Part shown: positions 2,124 to 26,481 of the stretch, piece by piece
Numbering within the stretch: position 1 is the first letter of the stretch
Layout: the number at the start of each line of letters is the position of its first letter
From: Synechococcus sp. M16.1
GTDB taxonomy: Bacteria; Cyanobacteriota; Cyanobacteriia; PCC-6307; Cyanobiaceae
Direction: 5' to 3'
Assembly (NCBI RefSeq): GCF_014279895.1
Contig: NZ_CP047954.1
Coordinates: forward strand, 1,054,001-1,118,000
Length of the DNA: 64,000 bases
Translations under genes and position numbers: made by a program
Notes under the pieces: generated by a model
What the model saw: only the letters and a program-made list of their open reading frames with translations
Database searches by the model: none
What the model was told of the DNA's origin: nothing

Positions 2124-4900
2124 GACGCCTCCTCCTTCTGCTGCCGCTGGTTGTTGTTGCAGCCCGGATGCAGATCGAGTGGCTCTGGTTCGATCAGTTC
2201 ACCTGGAGCGACGTTCTTCTCAAGCGCTGGCTTCTGCAGCTTCTCTTCGCGGGAGTGGCGATGCTGCCGCTGCTGTCAGCCCAGGCCTGGTCAAGGCAAT
2301 TCAGGAAACACAGCTCGAGTTCATCCAAGGCGATGAGCCTGACGGGATGGTCCTTTGGATTCACGCTGTTGATCAGTGGTGGTGCTGTGCTGATCAGTGC
2401 CTTGCTGACGCTGGATATGTTGGCGTTGGCCATACACGATCCGTTTCAGCTTGGGGAATGGCAGCCAGTTGCGGGGCTCCAGCACCGCATCAGCTCAGCT
2501 GCAGGACTCGTTCAGGCAGGGGCGATAGGGCTTGCGATGGCCTGGCCGCGGTTGAGGCTGTGGCTGGCACGGATCGTGGCGGGTTCGCTGGTGGCTGTCG
2601 TCAGCCGGGCGTGGGGCATCTGGTCGCTGGCGCTATGGATTCCCGATGAATCCACGAGAGACCCCTTGCTGGGAGCGGATCTCAGCTTCGGCTTGGGGCG
2701 TTTTGCCGGATTGCATCTGGCCCTGGACCTGCTGCTCTTGGCTGCCGCGTTCACCCTCACCTTTGAACTCTGGCGGGTGCTGGCGAGCTCAAAATCGATT
2801 TCTGACTGGGCCAGTCCAGCCTTTTCTGCGCGACAGATTCAACTGATCAGGTTGCTTTCGGCGCTTCTGCTGTTCGGAGCGGCGGGGCAGGTGTGGTTAT
2901 CGAGGCATCAGCTGCTGTGGACCCAACACGGCCTGGTAGCAGGGGCGGGCTGGCTCCAGGCCCACATGACCCTTCCGTTGCGAGGCTTCGCCACACTGCT
3001 GCTGGTGCTGATCGCATGTGCACTTCTTGTCCCGTGCCGGCGACGCCTCCGTCAGGGCCTTGCACTGGTGTTGGTGTCTCTTGTGGTGTTGGAAACGGTG
3101 GCAACTCCGGTAACGCGCTGGCTGGTGGTGCGGCCAAGGGAATTTGCACTGCAAGAGCGCTATCTGAACAATGCCATTGAGGCCACGCAATGGGGCTTCC
3201 AGTTGGATCAGATCAAGAGTCAAGTCGTCGACCCGACAAGGTTCAGCGCCGCTGATCGCGAGCAAGGTGTTAGCACGCTCGAAAATGTGCGTCTCTGGGA
3301 CAGCAGCCCTCTGCTGGAAGCCAACCGGCAACTGCAGCAACTGAGGGTGTACTACCGCTTTTCCAATGCCGCTGTTGATCGATACCCGCTGAATGAAAAC
3401 AGCGATTCCTCGCAGCAAGTGATCCTCTCGGCCCGCGAATTGGATCAATCTGCCTTACCGCGTCAATCCAGAACCTGGCAGAACCGTCACTTCATCTTCA
3501 CTCATGGCTATGGATTCACCGTCAGTCCGGTGAATGACCGAAGCAGTGATGGCCTTCCCTCGTATTTCATTAAAGGTCTTGGCCCAGAAACACTCATTGA
3601 GGGAAATCCAGAACTGGGGATTGAACGATCGGAGGTGCAGAAGGCCATCCCCGTTGGTGATGCAGCGATCTATTACGGGATGCTTCCTTCGCCCTATGCC
3701 ATCGCTCCAACGCAGATTGAAGAATTCGACTACCCCGAAGGCGACATCAATGTGATGACGCACTATCAGGGTTCTGGCGGAGTACCGATTGGATCCTGGC
3801 TTCAACGATTCGCAGCGGCTGTTTATCTGCGTGACCCTCGATTGCTGATCACCACAACGATCAATGCTGATTCCAAGCTTTTGATCCGGCGTGATGTGCG
3901 CAGTCGGGTTAAGGCCATCGCTCCCTTTATTGATTTTCGTGGTGAGCCCTACCTGATCTCCATTCCAAACCCTGAGCAAGACAGCTCCAACACCACCAAG
4001 GCAACTTCAGAACAACGCAGCCAACATCAGTATTGGGTTGTCGAGGGTTACACCCATAGTTCAACCCTGCCCTACAGCGCTGCGGTCTCAGCAGATGATC
4101 CGGATCGGTATTTAAGAAACTCAGTGAAGGCCATCGTTGATGCTTATAACGGCAGCATTCGCTTTTTCATCTCGGAGCCTGAGGATCCAATTGTGATGGC
4201 CTGGGCTCACGCTTTTCCAGGCTTGATGGAGCCGATGGAGGCAATGCCAAAGCCTTTTCTTGATCACCGCAGAGTTCCTGAGGACTTCTTCAATGCCCAG
4301 GTCAACCAATTGAAGCGGTACCACGTTTCGAATCCGAGGATTTTCTACAACGGTGATGATGTTTGGCAGGTGCCAAGCGAGATCTACGGCGGCCGCAAAG
4401 TTGATGTTGCTCCGTATCACATCACGGCTCAGCTTCAAAGCAACGACAATTCTGAATTTCTGCTGCTCCAACCACTGACCCCTTTGTCAAGGCCAAATCT
4501 CACGGCGTGGTTGGTGGCTCGGAATGATGGTGATCACTACGGTGAACTGAAACTGATCGACTTTCCCAAAGACAAATACATTCCCGGGCCGGAACAGGTT
4601 CAGGCTCTGATCCATCAGGATCCAGATGTGAGCGAGCAGTTCGGTCTATGGGATCAGGAAGATCTGGAACTCCTGCAGGGAAATCTTCTTGTGCTTCCCG
4701 TGGGCTCCGGACTTCTCTATGTGGAACCGGTGTATCTGCGCACCAAGAAGGTAGGGCTGCCTTCTCTGGCCAGGATTGTTGTGAGTGACGGCCGATTGGT
4801 TGCCATGGACCGCGACCTCAATCTTGCTTTGGATCAACTCATGAAAAAAAGCCCCACCCGTTTGACGGGCAGGGCAAAACGAAGTGACCGATCGGGTTGA
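2120..4900 (+). CDS. UPF0182 family integral membrane protein
   Basis: The 926-residue product has about seven hydrophobic segments in its first 350 residues, followed by a large soluble domain of about 570 residues. This is the architecture of UPF0182 (COG1615), a cyanobacterial and actinobacterial family of unknown function. Conserved-looking stretches include QERYLNNAIEAT and FTHGYGFTVSPVN in the soluble part. Its ATG overlaps the ftsH stop by four bases, so the two are probably co-translated; a role linked to membrane quality control is only an inference from that. The last codons contain, on the opposite strand, the intrinsic terminator of the convergent peroxiredoxin gene. Confidence 0.85.
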   Translation: MRRLLLLLPLVVVAARMQIEWLWFDQFTWSDVLLKRWLLQLLFAGVAMLPLLSAQAWSRQFRKHSSSSSKAMSLTGWSFGFTLLISGGAVLISALLTLDMLALAIHDPFQLGEWQPVAGLQHRISSAAGLVQAGAIGLAMAWPRLRLWLARIVAGSLVAVVSRAWGIWSLALWIPDESTRDPLLGADLSFGLGRFAGLHLALDLLLLAAAFTLTFELWRVLASSKSISDWASPAFSARQIQLIRLLSALLLFGAAGQVWLSRHQLLWTQHGLVAGAGWLQAHMTLPLRGFATLLLVLIACALLVPCRRRLRQGLALVLVSLVVLETVATPVTRWLVVRPREFALQERYLNNAIEATQWGFQLDQIKSQVVDPTRFSAADREQGVSTLENVRLWDSSPLLEANRQLQQLRVYYRFSNAAVDRYPLNENSDSSQQVILSARELDQSALPRQSRTWQNRHFIFTHGYGFTVSPVNDRSSDGLPSYFIKGLGPETLIEGNPELGIERSEVQKAIPVGDAAIYYGMLPSPYAIAPTQIEEFDYPEGDINVMTHYQGSGGVPIGSWLQRFAAAVYLRDPRLLITTTINADSKLLIRRDVRSRVKAIAPFIDFRGEPYLISIPNPEQDSSNTTKATSEQRSQHQYWVVEGYTHSSTLPYSAAVSADDPDRYLRNSVKAIVDAYNGSIRFFISEPEDPIVMAWAHAFPGLMEPMEAMPKPFLDHRRVPEDFFNAQVNQLKRYHVSNPRIFYNGDDVWQVPSEIYGGRKVDVAPYHITAQLQSNDNSEFLLLQPLTPLSRPNLTAWLVARNDGDHYGELKLIDFPKDKYIPGPEQVQALIHQDPDVSEQFGLWDQEDLELLQGNLLVLPVGSGLLYVEPVYLRTKKVGLPSLARIVVSDGRLVAMDRDLNLALDQLMKKSPTRLTGRAKRSDRSG
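4844..4875 (-). terminator. Intrinsic terminator of the peroxiredoxin gene, inside the UPF0182 coding sequence
   Basis: Read on the minus strand, a stem formed by GCCC/GGGC and CCCGT/ACGGG with a CAA loop (4851-4875) is followed directly by seven T residues (4850-4844). That is a textbook factor-independent terminator for the gene at 4909-5508. It lies wholly within the 3' end of the convergent UPF0182 gene, where the A-run encodes two lysines. Confidence 0.8.
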
Positions 4901-22352: not shown

Positions 22353-22847
22353 ATGAGCGTTGTCCGGGATCTCATCCTCCAGGCCGATGACGATCTGCGG
22401 TATCCCACCAGCGGAGAACTCCGCACCATGGTGGATTTCCTCGACCAAGGCGCCATGCGCGTGTCTGTGGTCAAGGTTCTGACCGAGAACGAAAAAAAGA
22501 TCGTCGACGAATCCGCCAAGCAACTGTTTGGTCGCAAACCTGAGTACGTCGCCCCTGGCGGTAATGCCTACGGTCAGCGCCAGCGGGCCCAGTGCCTCCG
22601 CGACTACAGCTGGTACCTCCGTCTGATCACCTACGGAGTTCTGGCCGGCAGCACCGAAATGATCCAGGAGATCGGTCTGGTGGGGGCTCGCGAGATGTAC
22701 AACAGCCTGGGTGTTCCGATGCCCGGAATGGTTGAAGCCATGAAGTGCATGAAGGAAGCGTCCCTGTCGTTGTTGTCGGAACAGCAGGTGAAGCTCACGT
22801 CTCCTTATTTCGACTTCCTGATTCAGGGCATGCAGACGTCCACCTGA
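22353..22847 (+). CDS. apcD: Allophycocyanin alpha-B subunit
   Basis: The 164-residue phycobiliprotein has the globin-like fold signatures GELRTMVDFLDQG, PGGNAYGQRQRAQCLRDYSWYLRLITYG and REMYNSLGVPMPGMVEAMKCMKEASL. The bilin-binding cysteine is in QRQRAQCLRDY. The N-terminus MSVVRDLILQADDDLRYP points to ApcD rather than ApcA or ApcF. ApcD is a terminal emitter of the phycobilisome core and directs energy to the photosystems, with a bias to photosystem I. Start and length are normal. An intrinsic terminator follows 26 bases after the stop, so it is a single-gene unit. Confidence 0.93.
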   Translation: MSVVRDLILQADDDLRYPTSGELRTMVDFLDQGAMRVSVVKVLTENEKKIVDESAKQLFGRKPEYVAPGGNAYGQRQRAQCLRDYSWYLRLITYGVLAGSTEMIQEIGLVGAREMYNSLGVPMPGMVEAMKCMKEASLSLLSEQQVKLTSPYFDFLIQGMQTST

Positions 22848-22873: not shown

Positions 22874-22898
22874 CCGGGCCCTCGAGCCCGGTTTTTTT
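22874..22898 (+). terminator. Intrinsic terminator of apcD
   Basis: CCGGGC (22874-22879) pairs with GCCCGG (22886-22891) around a six-base loop and is followed by seven T residues (22892-22898). This is a strong factor-independent terminator directly downstream of apcD. Confidence 0.9.
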
Positions 22899-22905
22899 AT
22901 TTTCT

Positions 22906-22958
22906 ACTTGTCTTGACTGAGACAGCTTTCAAGACCTGAAATGCGCCTCAGTTGAGAC
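22906..22958 (+). repeat. Left copy of an imperfect inverted repeat pair
   Basis: This element has ACTGAGAC at 22916 and GTTGAGAC at 22951, exactly 35 bases apart. Inside is a 7-bp hairpin (GTCTTGA 22910-22916 with TCAAGAC 22929-22935, 12-base loop). The reverse complement of 23857-23910 has the same layout: CTTATCTCTACTGAGAC, then a CAAGACA/TGTCTTG hairpin with a 12-base loop, then GTTGAGAC 35 bases after the first motif. The two copies face each other about 1 kb apart. Confidence 0.5.
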
Positions 22959-23304
22959 CTACGAGATGGAGATCTGCTTTTTAATTTTCTGCCAATCACC
23001 TGTTGAAGTCGTGCAGGGCATCCTCTCGATAATTCAATCGGCCGCACAAGGGCGTCAGGTCTCTGCCTTGTCCATAGGCCGACATTCTTAAGCAGCCGAC
23101 CGGCGAAGCTTCGAGGCGCCAATCCGTCTCGGGCGAGACTTCAATTAAGACCCATAACAGGTCTATGTTGAGCCGCTTGGTACTTATCTCTGGCTTAAAG
23201 ATGATCGATAGGCGCGTGATTGAAGCTGTGGAGCGATCCCCGGATCAACAGCCAGACACTGGTCCCGATTCGAGGTTTCGAGGCCCAAAAAAGTGAGGAT
23301 GCAT

Positions 23305-23333
23305 TGCGTACCTGTGTCTACAGCAGGTACGCA
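23305..23333. other. Strong 10-bp hairpin in the gene-poor interval
   Basis: TGCGTACCTG (23305-23314) and CAGGTACGCA (23324-23333) are perfect complements around a 9-base loop. No T-run follows on either strand. It may belong to a small non-coding RNA or be an operator-like palindrome; sequence alone does not decide. Confidence 0.5.
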
Positions 23334-23587
23334 GGGCTGAAAACCGGCTTTTACAGGGGTTTCATCGCTCACGGGCATCCCCTGGACTGGCCGTGGACTA
23401 CAGGCAGAACAATCAAGCACAGAGTTTTTTGAGAAGGAAAGGTGACGCAATACTCCACTGCTCAGCAAACAAAAACCACCAATTTTGTGGATCTTGAGGA
23501 TTAGCGCTCATCGCAGGCAAGTCTCTTTATGGGTCCCGCTGCGCGTCGCAGGCAAGACCACAGACTCTGTGAGCAGACTGCGAACGG

Positions 23588-23848
23588 ATGAACAAATTGG
23601 ACCTCGATCCACGCCTGGAGGGTGGCGAAGAACAGCACACCAACATTCTCTCGGTAAACAGCCTCCAAAGCCTGAAGAACAATCTGTCCAATGTGATTGT
23701 TGTGGGCCTGATGGTTGCGGCATTCAAAAAGACCATCGGCTTCGAGGTGAACAACGCCGCTGATTTGTTGGTGCTGTGTGGCTCCGTGGCCATGTTGGCC
23801 CTCAGTGCTTGGTTGATTGTTCGAGGCCACGGAGCTGTCCATGAATGA
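23588..23848 (+). CDS. Small membrane protein of unknown function
   Basis: The 86-residue product has a polar N-terminus (MNKLDLDPRLEGGEEQHTN) and two hydrophobic segments, NVIVVGLMVAAF and ADLLVLCGSVAMLALSAWLIV. The layout SLQSLKNNLSNVIVVGLMVAAFKK...DLLVLCGSVAMLAL resembles the C-terminal half of UPF0114 (YqhA-like) membrane proteins as I recall them, which would make it a truncated relative. That is an inference, not shown. An in-frame TGA lies just upstream, so the start at 23588 is firm if the gene is expressed. It sits between the two inverted-repeat copies. Confidence 0.5.
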   Translation: MNKLDLDPRLEGGEEQHTNILSVNSLQSLKNNLSNVIVVGLMVAAFKKTIGFEVNNAADLLVLCGSVAMLALSAWLIVRGHGAVHE

Positions 23849-23856
23849 CAACGCAG

Positions 23857-23910
23857 CCGTCTCAACCAAGACATGCGCTTGGACCTGTCTTGCGTCTCAG
23901 TAGAGATAAG
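23857..23910 (-). repeat. Right copy of an imperfect inverted repeat pair
   Basis: On the plus strand GTCTCAAC (23859) and GTCTCAGT (23894) are 35 bases apart and enclose the hairpin CAAGACA (23867-23873) / TGTCTTG (23886-23892) with a 12-base loop. This mirrors the left copy at 22906-22958 in inverted orientation: 14 of 17 bases match over CTTATCTCTACTGAGAC, and GTTGAGAC is identical. It lies just after the small membrane protein gene and just before the convergent J-domain gene. Confidence 0.5.
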
Positions 23911-23913
23911 CGG

Positions 23914-24915
23914 TCAACGGTTTCTGTACAGCTCACGCAGGAGCCGATAGGCCTCATTGAGTCGGCGCATCGCGTCTGTGGACCCACCTGCATCAGGATG
24001 TTCCTCAAGCGCCCGTTGCTTGTAAGCCTCCCGGATGGAGCTCAGGGTGACCGAAGTCCCTGCTTGGGTTGACAACCCCAGCAGTTTGAGAGCCCCATGC
24101 ACCGTCATGGTCGACTCAAGGGTTTCGAATGAGGTGACCTGTCTGCTGCGGCGGAAACGGTTCACGAAGCGGCGGATCAGGGTCGGCATGCGTTCCGCCA
24201 ATGAGGATGTTGCAAAGGGATCCTCTAGAGCGCCAGCCACGACCATCACCCGACCCAGCGATGGGTCGCTTGACTCCCAGCTGGCACAGAGTGTCTCAAC
24301 GGCTGCATTGGCAGCCGACCAGGTGAATGGACGCCCATCACTGGCATCGGTACTGGACCAGACATCTCGGGCCAGCCAGGTCATGGCCGCTTCAATCACT
24401 GTTGGGCCCGGTGGTTGGCCATAAAGGGACCTCCAGTGCTCTTCTGCGGCAGCACTGGCCTCTCTTAGATCGGTGAGGTCCACCGTTGAGACAAGGGGGT
24501 CGTTCTGAGGGGAATCGCGTTGCTGCGGAGAGCGAAGCGTCGCTTTCAGCTGACTGGTGCGCTTGCTGACGAACCCCGGCAGGTCGATGCCTGAGGAGCC
24601 ACCTCCCGAAGGAAGCCCAGAGGCTGAGGCTGGAGCGTCTTCACCCCCTTGCTGTTGGTTCCCCGTTGAGATCAGAACGAGACTGGTGACCTCATCGGGC
24701 CCAGTGGCGACCGCTGGTTCAGCATCGTCCTTGAGAGGATCGACCTCAGGATCCGATGCTGCATCCCCAGGGTCGAGCAGATCCTGGAGGAGCATTTCGA
24801 GCACCCGGCCCCGGGAACGGGCTCCGTATTCACCCTTGAGCTGGTCAATCAACGCGACCATGGGCTCTGACATCTCCACAGAGATGCGTTGACGTTTTGA
24901 GTCCTCGCCGCTCAA
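23914..24915 (-). CDS. RHH-like and C-terminal J-domain protein
   Basis: The 333-residue protein has an unusual order. Residues about 9-48 (RISVEMSEPMVALIDQLKGEYGARSRGRVLEMLLQDLLD) resemble a ribbon-helix-helix or CopG-like segment. An acidic, Ser/Pro-rich linker follows (50-125), then a helical middle (about 150-260). The extreme C-terminus (about 278-333) is a J domain with HPD at 306-308 and the helix LNEAYRLLRELY. The HPD tripeptide means it could stimulate a DnaK ATPase. No glycine/phenylalanine or zinc-finger region of true DnaJ is present. The gene is 24 bases after DUF3370 on the same strand. Confidence 0.75.
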   Translation of the reverse strand: MSGEDSKRQRISVEMSEPMVALIDQLKGEYGARSRGRVLEMLLQDLLDPGDAASDPEVDPLKDDAEPAVATGPDEVTSLVLISTGNQQQGGEDAPASASGLPSGGGSSGIDLPGFVSKRTSQLKATLRSPQQRDSPQNDPLVSTVDLTDLREASAAAEEHWRSLYGQPPGPTVIEAAMTWLARDVWSSTDASDGRPFTWSAANAAVETLCASWESSDPSLGRVMVVAGALEDPFATSSLAERMPTLIRRFVNRFRRSRQVTSFETLESTMTVHGALKLLGLSTQAGTSVTLSSIREAYKQRALEEHPDAGGSTDAMRRLNEAYRLLRELYRNR

Positions 24916-24939: not shown

Positions 24940-26481
24940 TTATCGACCCTGAAGCTGGAGCAACCACTGCTGCTGAGATCGAATCACATCGCCGTAACCG
25001 GGTCGGGCGACAGGCACCACAGCAGGAATCACAGAACCCGGCCTCACAGATGCTGGCCTCGCAGCTGCAGGGTTCACAACAACAGGCTTGGCTTCAGGTG
25101 GAGGAGGAGCGGTCTTCGGCCCCACCATGCGGGATTTACTGTCCGCGATTTTGACCTGGGCGTCCCGCTGTTGTTGCTTGCGGTGATGAAGCATGGCCAG
25201 CTGCTGAACGGGAACCACACTGAGGAGATGGCCTGGGGTGGCATCAGCCGGATAAACCAAGCTCACCTTCACCGCCTTGCGCGTTCCAGGGACCAGGTTG
25301 AAATCAGCCAGGGCCAGGCTCTCCCCTGAGCGCATGCCCACGTGAACCTCTTGAAGGGTTCGTTCCTGACGAATCTGCAGCGATCCACGGAAGGCTGTGA
25401 ACGTCTTCTTGCCAGACACAACCGGATGACTGAGCACCAGTTGATGGGGCCCTTCACCAGCAACATTGAGGGTCACGTCATAGCGAACCCCATAGGTGCC
25501 GACGTTGTTCAGAGCGGAATCAACCATCCGTGTGGTCAAGGGATTGACCTGAACATCGCTGGTGCCGAAGTGATGCCGCTTCGTGCTGGTCAGGGGCACG
25601 TGGAGTGGCCCCTGGTTGAGGTCATGGCTGATCTCAGCTTTGTAGGCATCGCCCAGGGCAACGCCGGCCACCCTGGAAAAAACACGACCCAGTTGGATCT
25701 CGCGAATCCGGTTGAGATAAATCCTTCCGGGTGCCAGTCGTCCCGACTGCAGCACTGCGAACAGATCGGCATCCTGTGCTGATTGCTCGGCGGCAACGAC
25801 AGCCATCGTGAAAGGACCGTTGCTGCGTCCTCTCAGCAGCCCGTTGGCAATGCCACGGGCAGGGAGCACCGTGCGCACAACAACCCTCTGCCCTCCTGCC
25901 GGAATCACGACCTGTTCGGGTATTTTCCGGTCCAGTTCACCGCGCAGCAGTTGAACGGCGGTGGCATCGCCTGGCCCTGTGTTCCAAGGACGCTTCCCAA
26001 GGGGTTTGACCCCCATCAAACGATTCGGGTGATAAGGCGCTTCAAAACTGTTTTTGACAGAGCCTCGATCGAACTTCAGTGTGATCGGGCTTGACCCGGG
26101 ATTCGTCGCGATCAGAGCCAGGGTCATCAAGCCTCTGGATCGACGGCTCCCCAACTTGGATTGGTCTTTGGGGTAGTACTTGTGATGCATATGAACGCCG
26201 AACTCACCGTTGAAGGTGTGGGCGGCATTGCGAAGCGGCTGGTTCGACTCCGCAGCGATGGCTGAGCCCGCAGCCGTGTTCACCATGATTCCTGGACCGG
26301 TGACGATCTCCGGTTGATTGGAATGAAGAACCGGAACGTTGTTGAAGGTGCCGTTGAGCGGTCGTGCCTTTTGACCTGCCATGAGCGCGACGTAGGCCTC
26401 AGCGTTGCGCTGAGGCATGCACTCAAAGCCCGCAAGCGAGACGCAGGTCAAGACCAAGATTGGGATTTGCCTGAGACTCAT
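24940..26481 (-). CDS. DUF3370 domain-containing secreted protein
   Basis: The 513-residue protein has an N-terminal hydrophobic segment (about 5-20) consistent with a signal peptide. It is followed by the cyanobacterial DUF3370 region, for example YVALMAGQKARPLNGTFNNVPVLHSNQPEIVTGPGIMVNTAAGSAIAAESNQPLRN and FGVHMHHKYYP. The C-terminal 60 residues are Pro/Ala/Val-rich (PPPPEAKPVVVNPAAARP) and probably disordered. It is likely periplasmic or surface-located; its function is unknown. The DUF name is from recognition, the secretion from the sequence. Confidence 0.78.
   Translation of the reverse strand: MSLRQIPILVLTCVSLAGFECMPQRNAEAYVALMAGQKARPLNGTFNNVPVLHSNQPEIVTGPGIMVNTAAGSAIAAESNQPLRNAAHTFNGEFGVHMHHKYYPKDQSKLGSRRSRGLMTLALIATNPGSSPITLKFDRGSVKNSFEAPYHPNRLMGVKPLGKRPWNTGPGDATAVQLLRGELDRKIPEQVVIPAGGQRVVVRTVLPARGIANGLLRGRSNGPFTMAVVAAEQSAQDADLFAVLQSGRLAPGRIYLNRIREIQLGRVFSRVAGVALGDAYKAEISHDLNQGPLHVPLTSTKRHHFGTSDVQVNPLTTRMVDSALNNVGTYGVRYDVTLNVAGEGPHQLVLSHPVVSGKKTFTAFRGSLQIRQERTLQEVHVGMRSGESLALADFNLVPGTRKAVKVSLVYPADATPGHLLSVVPVQQLAMLHHRKQQQRDAQVKIADSKSRMVGPKTAPPPPEAKPVVVNPAAARPASVRPGSVIPAVVPVARPGYGDVIRSQQQWLLQLQGR

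Follow-up and report, generated by a model that had tools for sequence, protein, structure and literature searches.

The closest known system to the locus described here is dif/XerL of Legionellales. In that system, a single recombinase acts on a site with long uninterrupted inverted arms (10 to 12 bp in Legionellales), the recombinase gene lies far from dif, the site is near the terminus, and mimicry by a mobile element served as a clue; each of these traits has an observed or proposed counterpart at our locus (PMC9765430). The E. coli dif/XerCD/FtsK system shares with it a dyad of about 28 bp at the terminus and the tyrosine recombinase chemistry that would be expected here (PMC5357621).

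A genome-wide prediction of dif sites succeeded in 0 of the 5 cyanobacteria tried (PMC3025954), a 2019 genome paper states that no dif is predicted in cyanobacteria and that its own species has FtsK (PMC6416890), and xerC has been called rare in the phylum (PMC5101192). The words dif and Xer are absent from a paper on cyanobacterial replication (PMC7198777), and no earlier report of a picocyanobacterial dif site was among the matches listed for the open-access literature. Here, we examine an interval of about 1 kb in Synechococcus sp. M16.1 that is, in our judgment, quite probably a replication-terminus recombination (dif-like) locus of the picocyanobacteria (Cyanobiaceae).

An interval of low G+C between apcD and a J-domain gene

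The window, by which we mean the whole 64,000-nucleotide stretch that was analyzed, covers positions 1,054,001 to 1,118,000 of the closed 2,112,236-bp genome. Within it, a spacer of about 1 kb separates apcD (22353-22847) from a minus-strand gene (23914-24915). An earlier note on this DNA had described the spacer as low in G+C, which our counts bear out (0.522 versus 0.612 in the remaining window), and only 16 of 1260 windows of the same length are lower. The interval and its boundaries contain the following features.

22353-22847, plus strand: apcD-type phycobiliprotein gene, the left boundary (open reading frame; name taken from the earlier sequence-only note)
22874-22898, plus strand: hairpin and T run resembling an intrinsic terminator, 3' of apcD (seen in the printed sequence)
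22910-22958, unstranded: palindrome A, 24/25, the left repeat of the earlier note
23126-23174, unstranded: palindrome B, 23/25
23306-23332, plus strand: dif-like core, 27 bp, with 9-bp perfect inverted arms and an asymmetric center, read as 10+7+10
23383-23399, plus strand: accessory GGAC repeats, starting +51 and +62 past the end of the core, with an 11-bp period
23510-23558, unstranded: palindrome C, 21/25
23588-23848, plus strand: 86-aa remnant of a UPF0114/YqhA-like membrane protein, comprising its C-terminal part and lacking the 5' part
23859-23907, unstranded: palindrome D, 24/25, the right repeat of the earlier note
23914-24915, minus strand: RHH-DnaJ gene, the right boundary, encoding an RHH-like N terminus, a helical middle domain, and a C-terminal J domain

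A match to apcD was present in 34/34 genus genomes (E <= 0.001, with paralogues counted in), and apcD adjoins the core in most loci of the family, where the gene order pheT-rumA-apcD-core-RHH/DnaJ recurs. One Prochlorococcus contig, L287, has rumA, the core, and RHH-DnaJ without apcD.

The small membrane gene named in the earlier note is, to judge by its sequence, a truncated UPF0114-like remnant. Its match to UPF0114 (E of 0.0004) lies below the family cutoff, the matching frames of relatives are longer (up to 200 codons and more), and 282 bp that lie between the two matched blocks in the related genome G033 are missing from the M16.1 interval. A UPF0114-like gene occupies the place downstream of apcD in only part of the genus, and in some genus genomes the homologue lies elsewhere or is absent. 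The suggestion that two copies of a regulatory element surround a small membrane gene therefore came nearer to what we found than its alternatives but needs amending, since there are four DNA palindromes, they flank a recombination-type site, and the gene is a remnant.

A conserved core recurs across the family

The core, an inverted repeat at 23306-23332 that had been overlooked in the earlier note, is the most strongly conserved part of the interval. Its dimensions agree with those of a dif site (about 28 bp, with inverted arms around a center of 6 to 8 bp), the cut positions being predicted only, and its tenth arm pair in M16.1 is T-G. At up to three mismatches, we found it in 46/201 family genomes, against 0 for a reversed control; it is single in M16.1 itself and in 45 of the 46, the exception being G170, which has two cores on two contigs.

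Comparing the region downstream of apcD across relatives, which the earlier note had proposed as a check, recovered the core in 28/30 genus regions with 0 to 4 arm mismatches, and a palindrome scoring at least 20 was likewise present in 28/30. Core and palindrome were both missed in G032, where 308 bases were covered, and in G029, a member of the same genus with 35% G+C (locus L085), where neither is recognizable in the 1.5 kb read after apcD.

For family genomes without a match at three or fewer mismatches, the evidence comes from 39 regions chosen by gene, each adjoining the RHH-DnaJ gene. A diverged core was present in 18 of the 20 regions of a first batch, 331 to 687 bp from the RHH-DnaJ stop and with 1 to 4 arm mismatches, and the two misses were genomes of group g17. 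A second batch had 19 usable regions; all 12 non-g17 regions contained the core (0 to 4 arm mismatches, 275 to 848 bp), and a core of this form was absent from all 7 g17 regions. Both batches together give 30/30 non-g17 regions, and the g17 regions, at 27 to 28% G+C, have a further variant of the core, AGTACTGTCTWTRAGRCAGYAC, in 9/9.

A search for the exact arms with any center in a collection of 84,980 species returned 68 stretches. In 58 of them the flanks contain host genes, namely pheT, rumA, apcD, or RHH-DnaJ. Nine are labeled as other bacteria; one of these (L288, labeled as a Bacteroidetes metagenome-assembled genome) has a flank equal to that of viral contigs L210 and L226 and is therefore probably of phage origin, assigned to a wrong host during binning. 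One more of the 68, L294, is an additional contig of a Synechococcus that has a core too: contig C27 (10.4 kb) of Synechococcus sp. Cruz-7E5, with a core-like site at 3306 and a replication-type protein (PHROG 4913). This contig may belong to a plasmid or phage that is served by the same recombinase.

Some family members depart from the common form. Three good genomes of group g8 (G040, G094, and G121) have the recombinase described below and neither a close core nor an RHH-DnaJ match, the latter being absent in at least three g8 genomes; in these three, the locus would be lost or diverged. In the AT-rich Prochlorococcus-like contigs L287 (603-629), L112, and L292, the dyad extends past the arms.

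GGAC repeats lie at a fixed distance on one side of the core

We found GGAC starting +51 to +54 after the core in 57/69 host sites, where shuffling predicts 1.0, and at the mirror position in 6/69; the remaining 12 of the 69 sites lack it at +51 to +54. A second GGAC often comes 11 bases later; in many freshwater genomes the distance is about 23. That this spacing stays constant from 27% to 65% G+C suggests that a nucleoprotein complex forms to one side of the core.

The core lies where strand composition switches

In sampled stretches of the M16.1 chromosome, the GC skew is positive to about 0.9 Mb, near zero between 0.99 and 1.055 Mb, and negative beyond 1.118 Mb. The 64-kb window by itself has no sharp GC-skew turn; across 303 contiguous kb, the change points fall at -18.5 kb (AT), +32 kb (GC), and +17.5 kb (combined) relative to the core. 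With stretches sampled 80 to 100 kb off on both sides and read in the orientation of the site, the AT skew rises across the core in 19/19 genomes and the GC skew falls in 13 of the 19. These tests are not independent, because gene order around the core is conserved. As is expected of a dif, the core is thus found at the terminus in a fixed orientation to replication, with the qualification that the synteny is shared.

A near-universal tyrosine recombinase, and no FtsK detected

M16.1 has six matches to PF00589. The candidate for action at the core is a divergent tyrosine recombinase of 400 aa encoded outside the window, at 611,131-612,330. It was matched in 190/201 family genomes (E <= 0.001) and in 130 of the 131 good ones, 128 of them below 1e-100; matches were weak in G057 and G081 and absent in G118. 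Of 23 chosen genomes, 7 have a single PF00589 match, and in the six of these other than G140 its coordinates identify it as the candidate. All 21 sequences compared retain the motifs GLRNHE, KTGEHQ, PYDLRHAWA/PYDLRHSWA, MMGHS, and TYHHW, which are of catalytic type, with a tyrosine at what we take to be the usual position of the second catalytic histidine. A chromosomal tyrosine recombinase of nearly universal occurrence, as a Xer protein should be, is therefore present, and near-universality together with elimination leads us to infer that it serves the core. The XerC, XerD, XerA, and XerS equivalogs of NCBIfam gave at best 21.4 bits against a curated cutoff of 267. Elsewhere in the M16.1 genome (G000:C1:1737144-1744161) there are broken or partial phage-type integrase genes, perhaps the remains of an island.

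With one Pfam model for FtsK/SpoIIIE (PF01580), 0/29 genomes gave a match over the cutoff, and two weak matches fell below it. The same model was positive in 10 of 14 known genomes, over the cutoff in 8.

Palindromes flank the core beside an RHH-DnaJ gene

The four palindromes of the interval follow a 49-bp pattern with 25 informative positions, GTCTY-N4-RAGAC-N8-RGWCY-N8-GTCTY-N4-RAGAC. Two of them, A and D, are the facing repeats that the earlier note had placed at 22906-22958 and 23857-23910, and these proved real: the [AG][CT]TGAGAC motifs stand 35 bases apart in A and in the reverse complement of D, each has a 12-base loop closed by a 7-bp stem (GTCTTGA/TCAAGAC in A and CAAGACA/TGTCTTG in D), and the agreement of their outer ends at 14 of 17 positions holds after a shift of one base (counted by eye; an unshifted comparison by script gave 2/17).

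After A to D, the best palindrome score in the window is 20 (at 26429), followed by 17. The best scores of 20 mononucleotide-shuffled windows ranged from 17 to 21, and 600 kb drawn from the same genome in stretches that partly overlap gave a score of 19 once, so that A, B, and D are each clear of chance and C barely so. The fifth, weaker match (26429-26477, 20/25) lies near the start of a gene whose open reading frame ends at 26481 and is perhaps due to chance, its score being within the range of the shuffled windows.

We also searched whole genomes with a shorter, 27-base version of the palindrome pattern. The repeat search of the host genome that the earlier note had called for placed 6/6 matches at up to one mismatch within the interval, the reversed control giving 4. 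Across 34 genus genomes, 12/12 zero-mismatch matches lie at the terminus locus by coordinates; with one mismatch allowed there were 117 matches, 60 of them at the locus, against 170 for the reversed control. The short pattern is thus concentrated at the locus and not enriched genome-wide.

The gene next to palindrome D was matched in 166/201 family genomes and in 120/131 good ones (E <= 0.001). Among 27 aligned proteins, the DnaJ domain was recognized in all and RHH_1 in 11 (E <= 0.01). An AlphaFold2 model of the protein had a mean pLDDT of 73 and a pTM of 0.42, with the middle helical domain confidently predicted. Foldseek returned nothing at E <= 0.001 for this model; the RHH and J matches come from a second structure comparison, in which the N terminus resembled the RHH proteins NikR (Z of 6.6) and MazE9 (Z of 6.6; 1.2 A over 43 residues), the Z scores for RHH being middling. 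We consider this protein the first candidate for binding the 49-bp palindromes, a role that its neighborhood and predicted fold suggest.

A candidate binder of this type raises the potential that the palindromes carry the main function and that the interval is a fork trap or a terminus-organizing region of the Tus/Ter, RTP, or MatP/matS type, in which they would be bound by the RHH-DnaJ protein. MatP itself has the RHH fold. The palindromes flank the core on both sides, an RHH-like domain is encoded next door, and the half-pattern GTCTYN4RAGAC, with one mismatch allowed, occurs 88 times, where 4.6 would be expected, across 39 regions beside the RHH-DnaJ gene, each of 1.2 kb; 37 of these contain it. 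Against this, the palindromes are packed into about 1 kb, and because the elements are symmetric they have no polarity of their own. Loci L242 and L260 keep palindromes with no RHH-DnaJ gene in the flanks examined (3.4 and 1.7 kb), 9/58 host loci, including several that have the RHH-DnaJ gene, contain no palindrome scoring at least 20 within 900 bp, and the occurrence of the core and GGAC array in phages (see below) is left unexplained. As the main account of the interval we judge this unlikely, although it may be true alongside the recombination site.

Changes in the arms favor a DNA site over an RNA stem

A hairpin-forming sequence of this size could also act as RNA, and we considered whether the core might be a conserved small RNA or terminator that phages encode as well. 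The stem is strong, with 26 contiguous paired bases in the dyad of L287, and the tenth pair is T-G, which would be G-U in RNA, in 25/45 distinct non-g17 cores. In arm pairs 1 to 9 of these 45 cores (405 cells), however, we counted 383 Watson-Crick pairs, 3 G-U pairs, and 19 other mismatches, so that G-U is rarer than the rest. Changed cells in the same pairs comprise 20 that are altered on both sides and still paired and 22 that are unpaired. Short of proof, these counts favor a palindrome that a symmetric protein recognizes in the DNA over an RNA stem. Conservation, moreover, extends to the sequence of the arms, beyond pairing alone (pairs 7 to 9, the inner CTG/CAG, are invariant in 45/45), and GGAC repeats at a fixed helical spacing are not accounted for by a hairpin. 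Rfam gave four matches at E <= 5 between 22500 and 24500, all far below gathering scores. An RNA element, which the earlier note had also raised, is accordingly disfavored, and we regard it as improbable.

Viruses carry host-matched copies of the core

Synechococcus-type arms were found in 49 viral contigs. The Prochlorococcus-type arm pattern, GCRTAACTGT-N8-CAGTTAYGC, which was predicted from host sites, was found in 77, whereas a reversed-arm palindrome of like make-up and a stricter unrelated palindrome each gave 0. These 49 and 77 contigs have what marks IMEX, the elements that use the host Xer system, namely a mimic of dif on a mobile element. No viral contig had a further host arm type; g17-type arms, for which the pattern is weaker, gave 18, few of them convincing and two with T7-like genes. 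In the 49 Synechococcus-type contigs (pieces of up to 15 kb), the flanking host genes and the recombinase were unmatched.

Phage genes were sought at 127 viral loci, namely 126 contigs and one named phage, with query families assigned by PHROGs. At least one of six phage queries matched at 66 loci, three of them via thyX alone, and none of the six at the other 61. The phage genes are mostly T7-like; the large terminase was matched at 55 of the 127 loci and the RNA polymerase at 36.

The spaced GGAC pair accompanies 44/70 distinct Prochlorococcus-type viral sites (0.11 expected) and 8/43 distinct Synechococcus-type sites (0.33 expected). The viruses have no copies of the 49-bp palindromes: in 1.03 Mb, three places scored 20 and none above. 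The isolate P-SCSP1k, which infects Prochlorococcus MED4, has a site that, on visual inspection, combines two host arm types; its GGAC repeats stand at +43, +54, and +65. Pedosvirus S28C3 has a site with five mismatches to the Synechococcus core, between the terminase gene and the next annotated gene and without the spaced GGAC pair. A short blast search with the core found one credible place among named phages (AP013539.1) and none among plasmids, and the Prochlorococcus core had no match among named phages.

These viral copies might suggest that the core is no more than a host attachment site for phages or other mobile elements, and the commonest host center does occur in 3 of the 49 Synechococcus-type contigs. 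Viral centers vary, however, and most are unlike those of the host; the place of the core is constant across the family, and the host loci read contain no integrated element at it. A role in the host is further suggested by the paired changes in the arms, and we hold a mere attachment site to be very improbable. As for the small non-autonomous mobile element (a MITE or similar transposon) that the earlier note had proposed from facing repeats bounding a low-G+C interval, we rule it out with near certainty, since M16.1 has no dispersed copies, palindromes lie inside the interval as well, the elements are kept in 28/30 genus regions, and relatives retain the interval with its gene order family-wide.

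A model for terminus recombination in picocyanobacteria

A single-copy core, one-sided GGAC repeats, flanking palindromes, a recurring gene order, a zone of skew switch, and host-matched viral copies come together at this locus. They are best read as a putative dif/Xer locus with a single recombinase and without FtsK. Two monomers of the near-universal tyrosine recombinase would bind the arms, and strand exchange in the center, between two sister copies, would turn chromosome dimers into monomers. Because FtsK was not detected, we propose that the GGAC array would give the synapse a direction, as accessory sites do in plasmid resolution sites; its binder would be either some other protein or a second part of the recombinase. 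A protein that marks the terminus or bundles it would probably bind the 49-bp palindromes, and phages that possess the core and GGAC array would have the host recombinase act on phage DNA.

A more specific version of this model can be offered only tentatively, and we are inclined to doubt it as a whole: in place of FtsK, a terminus complex, assembled on the palindromes by the RHH-DnaJ protein and on the helically spaced GGAC repeats, may pair and activate a single Xer-like recombinase, and T7-like phages may copy the core and GGAC repeats but not the palindromes and harness the host recombinase to process their own genomes, with arms that follow the host lineage.

If the dif-like reading is true, the ocean's most abundant photosynthetic cells gain a named terminus site and a named recombinase, and how joined chromosomes are separated without FtsK becomes a directly testable question. 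A group of cyanophages would also be shown to exploit this host machinery. Estimates of growth from metagenomes could use the core to mark the terminus. The core appears to be the dif that had long been missing in Prochlorococcus and marine Synechococcus, and the viruses of these cells carry a host-matched form of it.

Comparison with known systems

Set against related systems, the picocyanobacterial locus has several features of its own. Unlike dif/XerL (PMC9765430), it has GGAC repeats, 49-bp palindromes, and mimics in T7-like phages, FtsK is undetected, and it is described here from sequence. Unlike E. coli dif/XerCD/FtsK (PMC5357621), it would use one recombinase on near-symmetric arms with accessory repeats, and FtsK was not found. 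With plasmid resolution sites such as cer (PMC5357621) it shares a core plus accessory sequence, although it is chromosomal and its accessory repeats are GGAC at +51 and +62. With the MatP/matS terminus macrodomain (PMC3330122) it shares a gene for an RHH-type protein and short palindromes at the terminus; here, in contrast, the elements lie within about 1 kb, the RHH domain is fused to a J domain, and binding is a prediction. We conclude that the picocyanobacterial locus, for which no FtsK was detected, would belong to the dif/Xer kind, to which it adds a fixed accessory array and flanking palindromes.
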